Part shown: positions 2,753-11,538 of the stretch, in pieces
Layout of the letters: the number at the start of each line of letters is the position of its first letter
How positions within the stretch are numbered: the first letter of the stretch is position 1
Virus record (IMG/VR): IMGVR_UViG_3300022602_000263
Span: 1 to 34,098 of that record
Strand: one strand, 5' to 3'
Source: a virus
Length of the DNA: 34,098 bases
Notes under the pieces: generated by a model
Databases searched by the model: none
Told to the model about the DNA's origin: nothing
Seen by the model: the letters and a program-made list of their open reading frames with translations, nothing else
Made by a program: the position numbers and the translations under genes

Positions 2753-4012
2753 ATGTTCAATAATTTAAAAACAAATCTTCCTGATGGAATTTACCATAAC
2801 AGGGATGATGATTTTACGCGCAATTTTGTATTTGTAGGTAACGGCGAATTAAAATCATTTAAAGATATTGCAAATCTACCTATAAATGAAAAAGCATATT
2901 ATTGTCCAAGTTTCTTTCCTTATCTAAGTGATTATTATACAGATGGTTGTGTATTTGACAATCATTTCATACCAACAAGTGCTTTTAAATTTCATGTAAT
3001 AAATGGAAAAGTAAACACAAATATAATTCAACAAAGTATTAATATTGAAACCTATATTGATAATTTTTATGAAATAATTAAACAAAGAATTATTGAAATT
3101 TATAAAAATCATGAACATGTTGTGCTTTCATTAAGTGGAGGCATTGATAGTTTAACATTATTAAGTTTTATTGTTAATCTTAATCTATTGCCCAGAACAA
3201 CACTAATTCACTATAGAAATTATTTTGTAAACAATCATCCAGATTTAACTCAGAATAATAAATTTAAAGATTCTATCCTAACAGAAATTAAAAATAAATT
3301 TGCAAAACAATACAAAAAGTTTATCTATATTGATATTGGAGACAAAAATTGGATACATGTCGCAAACGAATTTTCTTATACTTGTTTAAAATTATATGCG
3401 ACTGCCACTACGATGCTTGAAATTAGCAACTGTGGATTTGTATCTGGATGGCAAGGTGATTTAAGTTTATTACATAAAACAATTTACTTAGAAACTATTA
3501 TTGGCGAGGACGTTAACAAAAAACAAGACTATTTGAAATTGTTGAGTAATAAAAAACTTTACATGAACAACTTTCTTAAGGATTTAGAAAAAAACAATTT
3601 TGTAAATTTTAATTGCAAAGCAAGAAGTTGGAACGATTTAAGTGGCATTAACAATAATAAATTTTATGTGCCTTTACTTGTAAATTCGGATTTGCTAAGA
3701 AGTTTAAATTTTGATAGCATAAATCTTATTGACATATTAGATGCGCGTGTAGGAAGAGAAATAATTTATAGAAATGTTGGAAATGATTTTAATCAGTATA
3801 TAAGCCATCAAGGAAATTTTGATGGCGATAACTACGAAAAAAAAGCATTCTCAAAAGATATGTTTTATAATTTAGATATTCCAAAAAATTTGAATCATAA
3901 TATATATGGATATAATTGGTTAAATGAAAATCTAAATTTTGATGAAATTGAAACAAATACAATCACAAGTGCAAAAATGTTAAATTATCTTAATTGGATT
4001 ATTAGTGTTTAA
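2753..4012 (+). CDS. Asparagine-synthetase-like PP-loop protein A (no glutaminase domain)
   Basis: This 419-aa protein carries the ATP-pyrophosphatase loop SGGIDS at 128-133, as in the synthetase half of AsnB and related amide-forming enzymes. A SGWQGD stretch further on may replace the usual GxGADE segment. The first 120 residues are not an Ntn glutaminase: there is no Cys2, and the N-terminus instead has an LPDGIYHN motif shared with protein B. Other motifs shared with B are KLYMNN, NNNKFYVP and ILDARVGREIIYRNVGNDF (328-346), so the two are paralogs. It may adenylate a carboxylate for amidation or condensation, using ammonia or an amine from elsewhere; the substrate is unknown. AGGA lies six bases before the ATG. 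It opens a five-gene coupled operon and overlaps the next gene by 8 nt. Confidence 0.72.
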   Translation: MFNNLKTNLPDGIYHNRDDDFTRNFVFVGNGELKSFKDIANLPINEKAYYCPSFFPYLSDYYTDGCVFDNHFIPTSAFKFHVINGKVNTNIIQQSINIETYIDNFYEIIKQRIIEIYKNHEHVVLSLSGGIDSLTLLSFIVNLNLLPRTTLIHYRNYFVNNHPDLTQNNKFKDSILTEIKNKFAKQYKKFIYIDIGDKNWIHVANEFSYTCLKLYATATTMLEISNCGFVSGWQGDLSLLHKTIYLETIIGEDVNKKQDYLKLLSNKKLYMNNFLKDLEKNNFVNFNCKARSWNDLSGINNNKFYVPLLVNSDLLRSLNFDSINLIDILDARVGREIIYRNVGNDFNQYISHQGNFDGDNYEKKAFSKDMFYNLDIPKNLNHNIYGYNWLNENLNFDEIETNTITSAKMLNYLNWIISV

Positions 4013-5345
4013 AGAAGTTTACGAAAATAAATGTAACATTCCAGACGGTGTTTATTTCAATCCAGAAACAAACAACATTGAAGATGTTATGTTTATACAC
4101 TTAATAGATGAAGATACACTTGATATAAAATATTGGAAAGATTTAATATACCAACCAATCAACATTAAAGGATTAGCTAAAAATAAAACATTTCCTACTT
4201 TACATAGAACTGATTGGACGTTAGGCAGTATATATAAAGATTGTTATGTTACTCCTAACAATTTGCACTTTACTGTCAATGGAAATATTATTGAAGTCAA
4301 ATACCAAAATTTAGAAACATTATCATTGAAAGAATATATTAATACTGCTCATAATATTTTTTTAGAAAAAATTAAAAACATTTATGAAACAAATGATAAT
4401 GTAGTAGTGCTTTTCAGTGGTGGAGTTGATAGTCTTCTTGTTCTATCATACATATATAAACTTGATATGCTACATAAAACAACCATTCTATATAATGAAA
4501 ATTTTTGTGTAGAGCATCCTTCTTTGATAAGAAATTCTCCTACCATGCTTTCAAAATTGCATGATATTAAAAAACGATTAAACAATCAACTTAATAATTT
4601 TGTAGAATGCGAAGTTAACATTAATAATCTGATTGATGCTTATAATACAGGAGAAACAACATATGCAAACTGTTATTCTAGTTGGCATATGTTAAACCAA
4701 TTAAGTAATTGTGCTGTTATAACTGGAAACTTTGGAAATCAAGTAACATTCCATAGTGATAGTTGGTTAGATCATCTTATGTTTTGTTCAAGCGATAAAG
4801 TTGAGGCTCAAAAAAAATTTCAAAATTTATTAAGTGACAATAAGCTATACATGAATAATCACCTTGAATTTGATTTCAATGACAACTACATTCATTATAA
4901 TCGCTTTACTTTTAATAGAGCATATTTTAATGAATTTGATGGTGTCAATAATATAAAATTTTATACACCTTTTGCAGAAGCAAAAAATTTGTGCAGACAG
5001 ATAAAAACCAGTGATTTAACTTTTGAAATAATTTTAGATGCACAAGTTCCACGAGAACTAATTAAAAGAAATGTAGGTAATTTATTTGAACGAAACATTT
5101 ATAAAAGAAGTGAATGGGACAATGATTCAATTACTGAAAATTTAAGTAATATGCTTTTTGATAGGGATAAAATCAACCCTGTTCTATTAACTATTCCAAC
5201 AAATCTAACTGTGGACGATGAAAAATTTTTTGATAAAATAAAAAAATTTTTAAAATTAAAAAAAATATCATATCAATATTATTATGCCGCAGTTCACCTA
5301 AACCATATTAGTAAAATACATAAAAAATATGGAAGAATTACTTAA
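4005..5345 (+). CDS. Asparagine-synthetase-like PP-loop protein B (no glutaminase domain)
   Basis: This 446-aa paralog of protein A has the PP-loop SGGVDS at 138-143 and the same conserved blocks: IPDGVYFN near the N-terminus, KLYMNN, GVNNIKFYTP, and ILDAQVPRELIKRNVGNLF at 343-361. It lacks a glutaminase domain and the N-terminal Cys. The pyrophosphate-side loop reads TGNFGNQ where active synthetases usually keep a GD or GADE, so B may be altered or inactive and could act as a partner of A. The start is a GTG at 4005, overlapping gene A by 8 nt; no other good start is nearby. Its stop overlaps the AsnB start (TAATG), implying coupled translation. Confidence 0.7.
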   Translation: MFKEVYENKCNIPDGVYFNPETNNIEDVMFIHLIDEDTLDIKYWKDLIYQPINIKGLAKNKTFPTLHRTDWTLGSIYKDCYVTPNNLHFTVNGNIIEVKYQNLETLSLKEYINTAHNIFLEKIKNIYETNDNVVVLFSGGVDSLLVLSYIYKLDMLHKTTILYNENFCVEHPSLIRNSPTMLSKLHDIKKRLNNQLNNFVECEVNINNLIDAYNTGETTYANCYSSWHMLNQLSNCAVITGNFGNQVTFHSDSWLDHLMFCSSDKVEAQKKFQNLLSDNKLYMNNHLEFDFNDNYIHYNRFTFNRAYFNEFDGVNNIKFYTPFAEAKNLCRQIKTSDLTFEIILDAQVPRELIKRNVGNLFERNIYKRSEWDNDSITENLSNMLFDRDKINPVLLTIPTNLTVDDEKFFDKIKKFLKLKKISYQYYYAAVHLNHISKIHKKYGRIT

Positions 5346-6610
5346 TGTGTGGATTTGTTTATGCAAACTTCAAAGATAAAAAATTTGTATTAGATGATGT
5401 TTCTTCTCGTGGACCCGACTCAGAAAAAGAAATTATAAATGAATATGGTTATTTTTATCAATCTCACTTGATTACAAATACTAATAATTCAGTGTGCCCT
5501 ATCGCCAATCAATACGGAGTATTACTATATAATGGCACAGAATACCAGGCACAAAACGATACCGACTCTATTGTTTCTAATTTAAGCGATAATATAGATA
5601 AGAATCTTGATTTTTTAAAAACTTTACAAGGTGATTTTGCAATTTGTTTTGTCACTGATCGTTATATTTTTTTAGCAACTGATTCATTTGTAACTAAACC
5701 ACTTTATTTTGGATTTTTTAATTCTAAAATATGTGTTGCTAGCACCCCCACGCCAATTAAAGAAGCAGGATTTTATCCATTTCTAATGGATATAAATTGC
5801 ATGATGGTATTTGAAAGAAAAACAGCAAAATTTGTCAACAAATTTACAATTAATATTTTTAATTTAGATCAAACCAAAGATAATTTAGATGATATATTTA
5901 TTGATTTTGAATTTTCTGTATTATCTAGATTTAAAGATAACTGTCTTGTTAATTTAAGCAGTGGATATGATAGTGGTGCTATAGCAGCATGTTTGACCAA
6001 ATACAATAAAAAATATCAAGTTGCAATTTATGTAGAACATGAAAACAAAGATATTCTAAAAAAAAGATTATCATTAGAAAACAATAAAAAACATCTTATA
6101 AACAAGAAAAAATTGACAAAAAGAAAACAACAAATTGTTGATATTCTTAACAAAAATTTGTTGCCTAAAACAGATATTATCTGTGAATTAGCGTTAGAAA
6201 CAGCAAATATTGCTCACACAAATAACTGCAGAATAAACTTGACTGGAACGGGTGCAGATGAGTTATACAGTGATTACGGTTATAATGGTATAAAAATTTT
6301 TAATCATCGTAGTTTATTTGGTGGTTTATTTCCCCAACAATTAGGTATTATTTTTCCTTGGCACAACTCGCAGTCATATGCATTATATAATGATATGCGG
6401 GCATTAGATTATTGTAATGGGCTATATGGAATTGATAGTCGTCATCCATTTTTAGATAAAAAGTTATTTCAAACTTGGTTAAACAGCAACAACAAGATTA
6501 AAAATTATAGTTACAAACATTGGATTGAACAATATATGATACAATGCAATTATCCTTTTGCAACTGAAAAAATTGGTTTAGGCAGCACAATTGCAATAAA
6601 TATAATATGA
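5345..6610 (+). CDS. asnB: AsnB-like glutamine-hydrolysing asparagine synthetase
   Basis: This 421-aa protein has both AsnB halves. The N-terminal class II glutaminase begins MCGF (nucleophile Cys2), with SRGPDS at 21-26 and LYNGTEY at 61-67. The synthetase half has SSGYDS at 205-210 (family norm SGGxDS), GTGADELYSDYG at 301-312, and the conserved YGIDSRHPFLDKKL block at 361-374. It would hydrolyse glutamine and pass ammonia to an adenylated aspartate or aspartate-like acid. At 421 aa it is shorter than E. coli AsnB (about 554), mostly through a compact glutaminase and a reduced C-terminus, so the substrate may not be free aspartate. It could supply ammonia to proteins A and B. It overlaps the genes on both sides (TAATG and ATGA). 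Confidence 0.85.
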   Translation: MCGFVYANFKDKKFVLDDVSSRGPDSEKEIINEYGYFYQSHLITNTNNSVCPIANQYGVLLYNGTEYQAQNDTDSIVSNLSDNIDKNLDFLKTLQGDFAICFVTDRYIFLATDSFVTKPLYFGFFNSKICVASTPTPIKEAGFYPFLMDINCMMVFERKTAKFVNKFTINIFNLDQTKDNLDDIFIDFEFSVLSRFKDNCLVNLSSGYDSGAIAACLTKYNKKYQVAIYVEHENKDILKKRLSLENNKKHLINKKKLTKRKQQIVDILNKNLLPKTDIICELALETANIAHTNNCRINLTGTGADELYSDYGYNGIKIFNHRSLFGGLFPQQLGIIFPWHNSQSYALYNDMRALDYCNGLYGIDSRHPFLDKKLFQTWLNSNNKIKNYSYKHWIEQYMIQCNYPFATEKIGLGSTIAINII

Positions 6611-6765
6611 GTTATTCAATTGCAAAGATGATTGAGTTTGTTTTCACTTATATAATTGTCAATGAATTAAAAAATGATAAACACATTATTCAAGATGATC
6701 TTAGGCAAACATTGCTAGAATATATGTCACTGCGAGTTGATGAAATAAAAAAACAATATAAATGA
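6607..6765 (+). CDS. Small unknown protein, 52 aa, in the AsnB operon
   Basis: The ATG overlaps the AsnB stop (ATGA at 6607-6610), and its own TGA overlaps the next start (ATGA at 6762-6765). Such linked overlaps on both ends are strong evidence of a translated gene. The 52-aa product begins MSYSIAKMIEF, has a short hydrophobic stretch (about 9-18) and is otherwise charged and probably helical (KNDKHIIQDDLRQTLLEYM), ending KKQYK. No family is recognised. It could be a small subunit or adaptor for the synthetase-like enzymes; that is inference from position only. Confidence 0.65.
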   Translation: MSYSIAKMIEFVFTYIIVNELKNDKHIIQDDLRQTLLEYMSLRVDEIKKQYK

Positions 6766-7052
6766 ATCCTACTTTAGATGATATAGATATAGGTTCTATT
6801 ACCTCTCTTGCCCCAGACAGATATATAGTTAAAATATATCCAAATCTTTTTGGAAAAACTTTTTTACCACCATTAAGTTCAGATTTTTTAAAAGAAACAA
6901 TACAACAACCACTTAAAGAATGGTGCGACAATTGTTTTTCTCATGACTATTCATTAAATTTTAGATATAATAGCGGTGATCCATATTGGTCGCTGCTCTT
7001 TTATAGTAGCGAAGATGTAAATATTTTTATGCTGCGATTTGCAAAAAATTAA
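6762..7052 (+). CDS. Unknown protein, 96 aa, last gene of the AsnB operon
   Basis: This 96-aa protein starts in an ATGA overlap with the preceding 52-aa gene. It has an acidic N-terminus (MNPTLDDIDIG), a proline-containing middle (FLPPLSSDFLKETIQQPL) and an aromatic-rich end (SGDPYWSLLFYSSEDVNIF). There are no membrane segments and no recognised catalytic motif. It ends one base before the convergent cupin gene, so this is the end of the operon. Function is unknown. Confidence 0.68.
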   Translation: MNPTLDDIDIGSITSLAPDRYIVKIYPNLFGKTFLPPLSSDFLKETIQQPLKEWCDNCFSHDYSLNFRYNSGDPYWSLLFYSSEDVNIFMLRFAKN

Positions 7053-7053
7053 T

Positions 7054-7710
7054 TTATGTCAATTTACCAGAATTGTCAAGATAAGTGCGGGCTTTAACTG
7101 GATTAGACTGATCTGTTGGACCAGTTTCACTATCTGGTGAAAAACTCCACAAAACTACAGTATTATCTTTAGTTAAAAAGTGGTGCAGTTCCATTCTTGG
7201 TAAGAAAAATAAATCGCCTTTTTTAACATCAATAACTTTATCAAGCAACTCAATACATCCTGCGCCAGCAATTATAAGCCCAATGCGGTGGCTCGGATGA
7301 ATGTGTGGTGTTTGCACCATATTTGGCGGGAAATAATCGTAATTAATAACTGGATCGCCGTCTCTACTTGGGTTAATTGCATTACTATTAGAAGCATTAT
7401 TGATATAACTTAGATTGCCGTGGTTTGTTGGATCGATAATGGTAATTGTATTTTCTAATAATGCTAATCCAGTATAAGATACAACTGCAGCATATGAGTC
7501 TTCACCACAAGATATTTTATATGGTTCAGTAATTGTGCAAGCCGCTGTAACATTTTTTACATCAAATTTTTTACTTTTAATACTAGCATCAGCAAGCATG
7601 ACATAATCTGTGCCTTGAGGATTAAATTTCTTTGTTTGACCTGGTTCTAAACGTGTAATCTTTAAAATCCATCTGTCTTTTGTTTCATAATCACTTTTTA
7701 CCAAATGCAT
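7054..7710 (-). CDS. Cupin-domain protein
   Basis: The C-terminal half of this 218-aa protein is a single cupin barrel. The metal-site segment is TPHIHPSHR (134-142), with H136 and H138 as ligands and H141 a possible third in place of the usual Glu. The second motif is GDLFFLPRMELHH (165-177), with the distal His at 176 or 177. The N-terminal 120 residues are a separate region with no recognised family. Cupins of this size are frequent in marine T4-like phages; the role (sugar isomerase, dioxygenase or binding protein) cannot be told from the sequence. AGGA precedes the ATG. A late-type box lies 65 bp upstream. Confidence 0.75.
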   Translation of the reverse strand: MHLVKSDYETKDRWILKITRLEPGQTKKFNPQGTDYVMLADASIKSKKFDVKNVTAACTITEPYKISCGEDSYAAVVSYTGLALLENTITIIDPTNHGNLSYINNASNSNAINPSRDGDPVINYDYFPPNMVQTPHIHPSHRIGLIIAGAGCIELLDKVIDVKKGDLFFLPRMELHHFLTKDNTVVLWSFSPDSETGPTDQSNPVKARTYLDNSGKLT

Positions 7711-7849: not shown

Positions 7850-7864
7850 TTATTGGGAAACAGC

Positions 7865-8959
7865 ATGCCACGTTTAAGTTTATATAGAGAAAATCATAGT
7901 AACGATTTTAAGTTTCAGGATAATCGTATCCGTGAAGTTTTTACAGCAGGTGGTGTTGGAATCAATGTTCACAAGTATCTTGGTCCAAAAGATCAAGGTC
8001 AAACCACAGATTTAACACAACCACAATATGGCAGTCAAAGTGTTCAAAATATTCAAGACTTGCTATTCCTTGAAAACCGTGACCGTGCTTACTCACAAGA
8101 CGTGTATGCGCTTCGTGGACACTATACAATCCAAGACAATGACTTTAATTTAAGTCAATTTGGTCTTATGGTAACAAATGATACGCTATACATTACATTC
8201 CATATCAATGATATGAGTGAGCGTCTTGGTCGCAAGATTATGCCAGGCGATGTTTTTGAATTGCCACATCTTCGTGATTATAACCCACTTGACACCACTA
8301 TTCCTGTTGCACTTAAAAAGTTTTATGTGGTTCAAGAAACTACTCGTGCAAGCGAAGGTTATGCGCCAACTTGGTGGCCACATTTATGGCGTTGTAAAGT
8401 TACACCAATGGTCGATAGCCAAGAGTTTAAGGACATTCTTGACCAAGAACAATATCGTGCAGATGGAACTCCAACTGGCAGCACATTAGGTGATTTCTTA
8501 AGCAGTTACAATCTTAATGTTGAAATTAACAATGCAGTAATTGCTCAAGCACAAAGCGATGTTCCAAGCAGCGGTTATAGTGTCAATCAACTGTTTATTC
8601 TACCAACTGCTGATGGGATCAGTCCAGTTACTGTTATACCTGGTTACTTAAGTGGAGATGGAACTGCGCCAAATGGCTTACCAGTAACAGTAAGCACTGA
8701 ATTTCCACTTAACCCACAACAAGGTGAGTATGCGTTACGTACAGACTATGTTCCAGCACGACTGTTCCGTTATAGCGGAACTACTTGGACTGCTATTCAA
8801 GATGTTCAACGCGCTAACATTACTGGTGCTAATAGCAATACACAACTTGGTACATTTATTAATAATAGTGGAACCGTTAAACTTGCAAATGGTTATGCGA
8901 TACCAAGCAGTCAAACACTAAGTAATCTATTCAATCTAACACCAGATAGTTTAGGATAA
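7865..8959 (+). CDS. Conserved virion structural protein (neck/tail region)
   Basis: This 364-aa protein begins MPRLSLYRENHSNDFKF and contains ENRDRAYSQDVYALRG, a QFGLMVTNDTLYITFHINDM block, GDVFELPHLRDYNPLD, and TWWPHLWRCKVTPMVDSQEF. I recognise this pattern as a widely conserved structural protein of marine T4-like phages without a clear T4 counterpart; it resembles neither T4 gp13 nor gp14 from memory. The C-terminal third has an LFRYSGTTWTAIQ segment, a small module also common in such virion proteins. The open frame extends upstream to a TTG at 7853, but the ATG at 7865 fits the family N-terminus. It is followed 4 nt later by the gp15-like gene, placing its product near the head-tail or tail-completion machinery. 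Confidence 0.72.
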   Translation: MPRLSLYRENHSNDFKFQDNRIREVFTAGGVGINVHKYLGPKDQGQTTDLTQPQYGSQSVQNIQDLLFLENRDRAYSQDVYALRGHYTIQDNDFNLSQFGLMVTNDTLYITFHINDMSERLGRKIMPGDVFELPHLRDYNPLDTTIPVALKKFYVVQETTRASEGYAPTWWPHLWRCKVTPMVDSQEFKDILDQEQYRADGTPTGSTLGDFLSSYNLNVEINNAVIAQAQSDVPSSGYSVNQLFILPTADGISPVTVIPGYLSGDGTAPNGLPVTVSTEFPLNPQQGEYALRTDYVPARLFRYSGTTWTAIQDVQRANITGANSNTQLGTFINNSGTVKLANGYAIPSSQTLSNLFNLTPDSLG

Positions 8960-10383: not shown

Positions 10384-10842
10384 ATGAAAAAGAAAAGACC
10401 ATTTATTGCACGTGAACTAACAGCAGTTGGTGCACTTTTTATAAGTCAAAATACTGGTCGTGCACTTTTTCTATTGCGTGATCAAGATACATACAGCAAT
10501 ACATGGTCGTTGGTTGGTGGTCAATTAGAAAGTGGTGAAACACTTTACGGTGGTCTTATTCGTGAAGTTCGTGAAGAAATTGGATTTGAACCTACAATTC
10601 AAAAAGTGCTGCCGCTAGAATATTTTAGTAGCCCAGATGGACATTTTTCATATCACACATTTGTAGTAATTGTCCCTAATGAATTTATTCCAACCTTGAG
10701 TAGCGAACATAAAGGTTATGCATGGTGTGATTTGAGTTCTACACCAAAACCACTGCACCCTGGTTTATATAACAGTTTAAGTAATAAAACCATTAAAGAT
10801 AAACTAAAAACAATTGCAGAAGTTTTAAAAATCGCCTTCTAA
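10384..10842 (+). CDS. Nudix hydrolase
   Basis: This 152-aa protein contains a complete Nudix box from G46 to F68 (G-x5-E-x7-RE-V-x-EE-x-G-F, visible as GGQLESGETLYGG followed by LIREVREEIGF). It would cleave a nucleoside diphosphate linked to another moiety using Mg2+. The substrate is not predictable; phage Nudix enzymes have been linked to dNTP, ADP-ribose, ppGpp or RNA-cap turnover. The length is normal for a single-domain enzyme. No Shine-Dalgarno is seen before the ATG. Its last 18 nt overlap the 3' end of the convergent minus-strand gene. Confidence 0.9.
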   Translation: MKKKRPFIARELTAVGALFISQNTGRALFLLRDQDTYSNTWSLVGGQLESGETLYGGLIREVREEIGFEPTIQKVLPLEYFSSPDGHFSYHTFVVIVPNEFIPTLSSEHKGYAWCDLSSTPKPLHPGLYNSLSNKTIKDKLKTIAEVLKIAF

Positions 10843-11538
10843 TACTGCTTGACGAATACTTATTTCATGATAATTTGGATATTTCTTTAATTCATTATTG
10901 AAATCAAAACTGTGTTCTGTGCGCACACGGTAAAAATGCACATCACTATAAACGCGCACAACATTGGTCAAGTGTGCGTTGTGTTTTTCATAATTATAAT
11001 CAAAGTCGTCATACCCAAGAGTGTTTGCATAAATGTTAGTATGCACATCTCCACAACCATCAAACCCAAATAAGAATACTTTTTTTGCACCGTCAAATGC
11101 AGCAAGAAACGCAGCAGTGCTACCACTATCCATATACCATATATTAGGAATTAAATTTGTATCTTGATACCCAACCCATAAATCATTTTGTAAAAAAATC
11201 TTACTTGCTTCTATTGGATATGTGTTGTCACCAAAGAAAATATTAGTTTTAAAAATATAATAATCTGCTTGTGTGTCACGATATGCTGCATTACAAGCAT
11301 AGGTTGTTTTATAGCCTTCAATAACTCGTTTATTATTTTGATTTAACAGGAATTGAATATTTGGGTCTAATCTACTAACACCATTACCTAATACGATAGC
11401 ATTTGATACACTACGATCATATGGAAAGTCACGTGGTGTGACAAATAGAGATTTCATTTGTGTAGTATTAGTGTCAACATAGGTGATAGTTTCACCTGTA
11501 TAATCTCTGCGATAAATTGGTTCGTTTAACTGTGGCAT
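10825..11538 (-). CDS. Unknown Rossmann-like protein (GNGxSR / LFGFD motifs)
   Basis: This 237-aa protein has a pattern I have met in phage hypothetical proteins: AIVLGNGVSRLD at 47-58 (probable nucleotide or sugar-nucleotide binding turn), YACNAAYRD, DSGSTAAFLAAF, then KVFLFGFDGCGD. The motif order loosely resembles DUF115/MptE-like and sugar-transfer enzymes, but no function is established. AAGGA precedes the ATG, and an AATAAATA late-type box lies 18 bp upstream, overlapping the stop codon of the fibre gene before it. Lying at the end of the fibre block, it may act on a tail or surface component, but that is inference. Confidence 0.6.
   Translation of the reverse strand: MPQLNEPIYRRDYTGETITYVDTNTTQMKSLFVTPRDFPYDRSVSNAIVLGNGVSRLDPNIQFLLNQNNKRVIEGYKTTYACNAAYRDTQADYYIFKTNIFFGDNTYPIEASKIFLQNDLWVGYQDTNLIPNIWYMDSGSTAAFLAAFDGAKKVFLFGFDGCGDVHTNIYANTLGYDDFDYNYEKHNAHLTNVVRVYSDVHFYRVRTEHSFDFNNELKKYPNYHEISIRQAVLEGDF

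Follow-up and report, generated by a model that had tools for sequence, protein, structure and literature searches.

The DNA analysed here (the window) is a viral contig of 34,098 nt from a freshwater phage (IMG/VR record IMGVR_UViG_3300022602_000263, positions 1 to 34,098). Five overlapping open reading frames, designated A to E, were confirmed on its plus strand between positions 2753 and 7052, and their junctions, in order 8 nt, TAATG, ATGA and ATGA, were found to overlap just as had been reported in an earlier reading made from the sequence alone. Gene A (2753-4012, 419 aa) encodes a PP-loop protein without a glutaminase domain, as indicated by its reading frame, its SGGIDS motif (residues 128-133, positions 3134-3151), a homolog in a related contig and structural matches of a low-confidence model. 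Gene B (4005-5345, 446 aa, GTG start) encodes a diverged paralog of A with the PP-loop SGGVDS (residues 138-143, positions 4416-4433), and gene C (5345-6610, 421 aa, beginning MCGF) encodes a protein resembling class II glutamine amidotransferases of the AsnB fold, according to Pfam, AlphaFold and VIA. Genes D (6607-6765) and E (6762-7052) encode small proteins of 52 and 96 aa, respectively. The G+C contents of A, B and C are similarly low (25-28%).

To the left of A, tRNA-Gly(tcc) was located with ARAGORN at positions 2657-2730 on the plus strand; it is the final tRNA before D in close relatives as well. A gene resembling GIY-YIG/NUMOD3 homing endonucleases (882-1511) was observed among the tRNA genes. 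The gene to the right of the block (7853-8959) was matched to a PHROG of virion structural proteins.

Contents of the slot between tRNA-Gly(tcc) and gene D

Using the structural gene at 7853-8959 as the query, 68 related contigs were retrieved, the longest of 338 kb, and the stretch between tRNA-Gly(tcc), the last tRNA, and D was defined as a slot. In the window the slot holds A-B-C in 3876 nt. It is empty in 13 related contigs, several of them near-identical, in which the gap between tRNA-Gly(tcc) and D is 36-43 nt. A alone occupies it in two contigs (L003 and L004; gap about 1.28 kb), with a homolog in L003 showing 42% identity to A (E 2e-92), and C alone occupies it in five (L019, L062 and L088-L090; gap about 1.30 kb), with homologs of 45-49% identity. 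One further contig (L043) has a slot of 0.8 kb, and at the edge of another (L010) the end of a C homolog with 69% identity is followed by D and E. In the more distant relatives L052-L054, glycan genes lie directly upstream of D and encode GDP-mannose epimerase, GDP-mannose dehydratase, a fragment of a DegT-type aminotransferase, a hexapeptide transferase, and a GT11 fucosyltransferase or GT2. Since its contents vary in this way across relatives (empty, A only, C only, A-B-C or glycan genes), the slot is a site of exchangeable cargo where the structural block begins to adjoin the tRNA genes, and the three genes A, B and C are its accessory load in the window.

D and E were found without A, B or C, adjoining structural genes, in many related contigs, and both are kept in the relatives with an empty slot (E is 76% identical in L003). 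They therefore belong to the core of the freshwater phage lineage represented by the window and lie outside the cargo, D forming the right edge of the slot; their inclusion in one set with A, B and C by the sequence-only reading was not upheld. That reading had proposed a dedicated five-gene pathway and had named beforehand the absence of a conserved five-gene neighbourhood as an outcome that would refute it. No contig other than the window showed the order A-B-C-D-E, and A, C and D-E were each found apart, so that a dedicated five-gene pathway is not supported. It had also taken C, as AsnB, for a possible ammonia source for A and B, and this role is not required, as two contigs have A at this locus and no C beside it; these contigs are fragments, so that C may be present elsewhere in those genomes. 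The same applies to the separability of A, B and C in general, which is observed at the slot in fragmentary contigs and leaves room for copies elsewhere. Together, A, B and C make up a cassette of cargo genes for diverged ligases of the PP-loop type, in part ordinary and in part an orphan family, and not a conserved pathway. No description of an A-B-C cassette was found in the literature.

Two observations on slot contents were made in passing. In L043 the slot contains a 246-aa reading frame on the minus strand (L043:909-1649) with cysteine-pair motifs and no Pfam match. The A homolog of L004 (L004:5989-7155) is shorter than that of the otherwise identical L003 owing to a one-base difference near its end, which represents either a sequencing error or a real truncation.

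Genes A and B

A and B share 30% identity over 399 aa (E 3e-47) and common C-terminal blocks, so the earlier description of them as adjacent paralogs with SGGIDS and SGGVDS motifs holds, and their N-termini can be aligned (B MFKEVYENKCNIPDG with A MFNNLKTNLPDG). The PP-loop is invariant across A, B and the L003 homolog except for the I/V exchange. A and the L003 homolog also contain an SGxxGD-like motif placed like SGEGSD of AsnB, and B has TGNFGN at this position, with Asp replaced by Asn; the correspondence with the AsnB motif is suggestive only.

Neither protein was matched by the Asn_synthase family PF00733 at E values up to 1, and an alignment of the A/B profile with the C family was confined to the PP-loop and was not significant. 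The view that the locus encodes three asparagine-synthetase-like enzymes was not confirmed, as C alone is matched by PF00733 and PF13537. Weak matches below the cut-off, restricted to the PP-loop and spanning just 25-110 residues, were obtained with TilS, LarE, TtcA, NAD synthetase and PHROGs of QueC-like and PAPS-reductase proteins. A structure model of A, built from three sequences, was poor (pLDDT 43.6, pTM 0.47) and best over the PP-loop region; on this low-confidence model carbapenam synthetase, GMP synthase and LarE were tied as top matches by Foldseek and VIA at Z 7-8, with TtuA and NcsA among the further matches. Ranking A among the PP-loop families by fold was dropped because of the quality of the model. 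Sequence and the best-scored part of the model place the SGGxDS loop of A and B in a beta-loop-alpha element of a Rossmann-like domain. A and B thus resemble N-type PP-loop ATP pyrophosphatases such as GMP synthase, LarE, TilS and carbapenam synthetase in this loop and in the modelled core of A, which aligns with them, but differ from them in an N-terminal region of about 100 aa and in C-terminal blocks for which no counterpart was found, and no match was obtained at the family level.

The only close homolog found for either protein is the lone A gene of the pair L003/L004. Searches of phage collections with A, B and the L003 homolog returned no real homolog, and a search of viral contigs with B as the sole query also failed to reveal close relatives. 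Profiles of A and B, run against viral and genome collections in scans that need short conserved peptides and may miss distant relatives, returned L003/L004 or nothing, and profile searches of the long related contigs yielded no further full-length A or B. By their sequences, A and B form a pair of orphan PP-loop proteins, and they mark a very small family without any characterised member. Adenylate-forming chemistry is a reasonable reading of the PP-loop in both.

In the 338-kb relative, a 387-aa PP-loop protein (L078:1144-2307) was found to be weakly similar to A and B around the PP-loop; as a candidate member of their family it was rejected, the hhalign probability of 87.5% extending over about 116 columns, which is too little. 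A reading frame resembling a radical SAM protein by sequence lies opposite this gene.

Gene C and its relatives

C was matched by Asn_synthase PF00733 (3.2e-8) and GATase_7 PF13537 (4.7e-8). Its score with the asparagine synthase model TIGR01536 was 64.1 bits, far below the equivalog cut-off of 267.1, and that with the WbpS-type model TIGR03108 was 18.6 bits, far below the cut-off of 816.9. An AlphaFold model built on an alignment of 17 sequences was confident (pLDDT 84.5, pTM 0.87) and was superposed by VIA on E. coli AsnB (1ct9) with Z 35.8 over 393 residues and on human ASNS with Z 32.1. Pfam, alignment and model agree on an Ntn glutaminase joined to a PP-loop synthetase domain, with an N-terminal Cys. 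The predicted glutaminase nucleophile, Cys2 (5348-5350), is invariant in 27 of 27 distinct family members, and the PP-loop, SSGYDS in C (residues 205-210, positions 5957-5974), is conserved in the family as SSG.DS. An invariant C-terminal residue, Lys409, presumably corresponds by motif to the essential Lys-466 of the human enzyme. As judged from sequence and model, then, the AsnB fold is complete in C, and Cys2, the PP-loop and the conserved Lys near the C-terminus are all present.

C shares with E. coli AsnB and human ASNS the two-domain fold, the Cys nucleophile, the PP-loop and the equivalents of D367 and E368, but it is shorter (421 aa) and differs at sites of functional weight. The SGEGSDE of AsnB and ASNS is TGTGADE in C in the alignment to 1ct9 and 6gq3 (GTGADE, the counterpart of GEGSDE, at positions 6245-6262), so that Thr stands at the site of ASNS Glu-364. 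This position is Ser or Thr in nearly all relatives of C, and Gln, Asp or Leu in a few diverged members. Human ASNS supplied with aspartate, ATP and ammonium loses its activity in the variants E364A and E364Q, and it also requires Asp-367 (PMC6748925), the equivalent of which is retained in C. Because a Glu that is essential in human ASNS is replaced in nearly all relatives, C probably does not function as an asparagine synthetase. In the glutamine pocket, the equivalent of Arg-48 is His in C and Ile or Leu in marine members, and that of Glu-76 is Thr in C; with these two residues changed, the use of glutamine by C is not assured and is best described as likely but not certain.

With C as the sole query, no close relative was recovered from viral contigs, but a profile of the C family gave matches in 36 contigs. 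In 24 of 26 marine, cyanophage-like contigs (L093-L118), a homolog of the glycosyltransferase ORF129 of phage S-SCSM1 lies directly upstream of the C homolog; that of L095 belongs to the TOD1/MUCI70 family. In most of these contigs, genes for GDP-mannose dehydratase, GDP-mannose epimerase, GDP-fucose synthase, fucosyltransferases and methyltransferases are present as well. The gene order is the same in the isolate S-SCSM1 around its C homolog, ORF130, annotated as 'asparagine synthase' (QFG06388.1), which is similar to C in length and motifs (30% identity over 405 aa, E 2e-42) but unlike C of the window sits within a fucose/GDP-mannose glycan cluster. In the description of S-SCSM1, this cluster is treated as serving cell-wall or LPS modification, and ORF130 is not mentioned (PMC9602691). 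No glycan gene adjoins C in the freshwater contigs; a search of eight of these contigs for TOD1/MUCI70 gave no match, and the controls of that search gave none either.

Among bacterial AsnB-like enzymes, WbpS and WbqG make uronamide sugars (PMC7468200), and in Lactobacillus the target of an AsnB-type enzyme is the cell wall, with an effect on infection by phage J1 (PMC3885529). The marine members of the C family resemble WbpS/WbqG in being AsnB-like enzymes encoded among glycan genes, and the C family would likewise amidate a sugar carboxylate. It differs in the weak match of C to TIGR03108, by which C is not to be called a WbpS, and in the absence of adjoining glycan genes from the window and its close relatives. 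The marine context and these analogies support amidation of a sugar carboxylate, as by WbpS/WbqG, as the best guess for C. The proposal that the product is directed at a surface sugar receives genuine support in the case of C, from the marine glycan clusters and the lost Glu-364 equivalent.

Proposed activities, alternatives and neighbouring genes

The reading preferred here, to which a probability of about one half is assigned, is that A, B and C are cargo of an accessory slot beside the core genes D and E, C being an enzyme that amidates a glycan carboxylate and A and B being adenylating enzymes without a glutaminase. C would hydrolyse glutamine, or take up free ammonia, and would spend ATP by way of an acyl-adenylate to amidate a carboxylate other than that of aspartate. 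The likeliest substrate would be a glycan made by the phage or present on the host surface, amidated at a uronic acid or a comparable carboxyl group, with chemistry as in uronamide sugar synthesis by WbpS and WbqG. A and B, with less support, would use their PP-loops to adenylate an acid and transfer ammonia or another small nucleophile onto it, and as cargo of one slot they may share the kind of target used by C. The PP-loops make amide or adenylate chemistry plausible for all three proteins. A is probably able to work without B and C. C is a variant of the AsnB family found in phages, and its targets are probably glycans.

An ordinary asparagine synthetase, carried as an auxiliary metabolic gene for the supply of Asn or nitrogen with A and B as unrelated hitch-hikers, would agree with the best named model and the best structural match of C (TIGR01536 and E. 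coli AsnB), but is improbable in view of a score of 64 against 267 bits, the Thr or Ser at a position at which human ASNS requires Glu, and the fixation of the marine relatives within glycan clusters. The tight overlapping junctions, single orientation and similarly low G+C content of A, B and C could indicate one dedicated pathway forming amide or peptide bonds, in which C gives ammonia or makes a third bond. Such a pathway is just as doubtful, since A alone and C alone occur at the same slot, a second copy of A-B-C was not found, and the core genes D and E overlap too, which deprives the overlaps of specificity. We likewise give little weight to the bolder proposal that A and B represent a PP-loop ligase family of a new kind, devoid of glutaminase domains, and, together with an AsnB-type C that does not make asparagine, carry out a novel amide or aminoacyl decoration of a phage or host surface glycan.

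For A and B, modification of tRNA or nucleotides by TilS-, TtuA/NcsA-, LarE- or QueC-like enzymes is suggested by the adjoining tRNA array, by the weak PP-loop matches to TilS, LarE, TtcA and the QueC-like PHROG, and by the structural matches that LarE, TtuA and NcsA gave with the model of A. It is a minor possibility, because those short matches rank no higher than the ones to GMP synthase and carbapenam synthetase, and because the slot, which in relatives holds other genes or none, accounts for the tRNA neighbourhood. A QueC-like PP-loop fold is employed in some defence systems, and the accessory position would suit defence or anti-defence proteins of a QatC or CBASS type; this is very improbable, as PADLOC gave no meaningful match and partner genes were not recognisable.

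If C is read as a glycan-amidating enzyme, phage genes labelled 'asparagine synthase' may encode glycan-modifying enzymes, as a residue required by asparagine synthetase is missing from the C family, and as gene order links this family to glycan clusters of the fucose type in many cyanophage-like contigs. A direct prediction follows for the products of cyanophage glycan loci. The slot, with its clear empty state, also allows the genes that phages exchange at this site to be compared cleanly in nature.

Further variation was observed to the right of E. In L013 (2898-7967), and likewise in L011, L018, L019, L020, L033, L045 and L048, a module between E and the structural gene encodes an APS-kinase-like protein, a cytidylyltransferase-like protein, several resembling sulfotransferases, and a member of the sodium:solute symporter family. 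In the window, the APS-kinase/sulfotransferase module of relatives is replaced by a single cupin-domain gene on the minus strand (7054-7710; Cupin_2, AraC_binding), the product of which is 96% identical in L010. A 237-aa protein with a weak match to a sialyltransferase PHROG, encoded on the minus strand at 10825-11538, is conserved beside tail genes.
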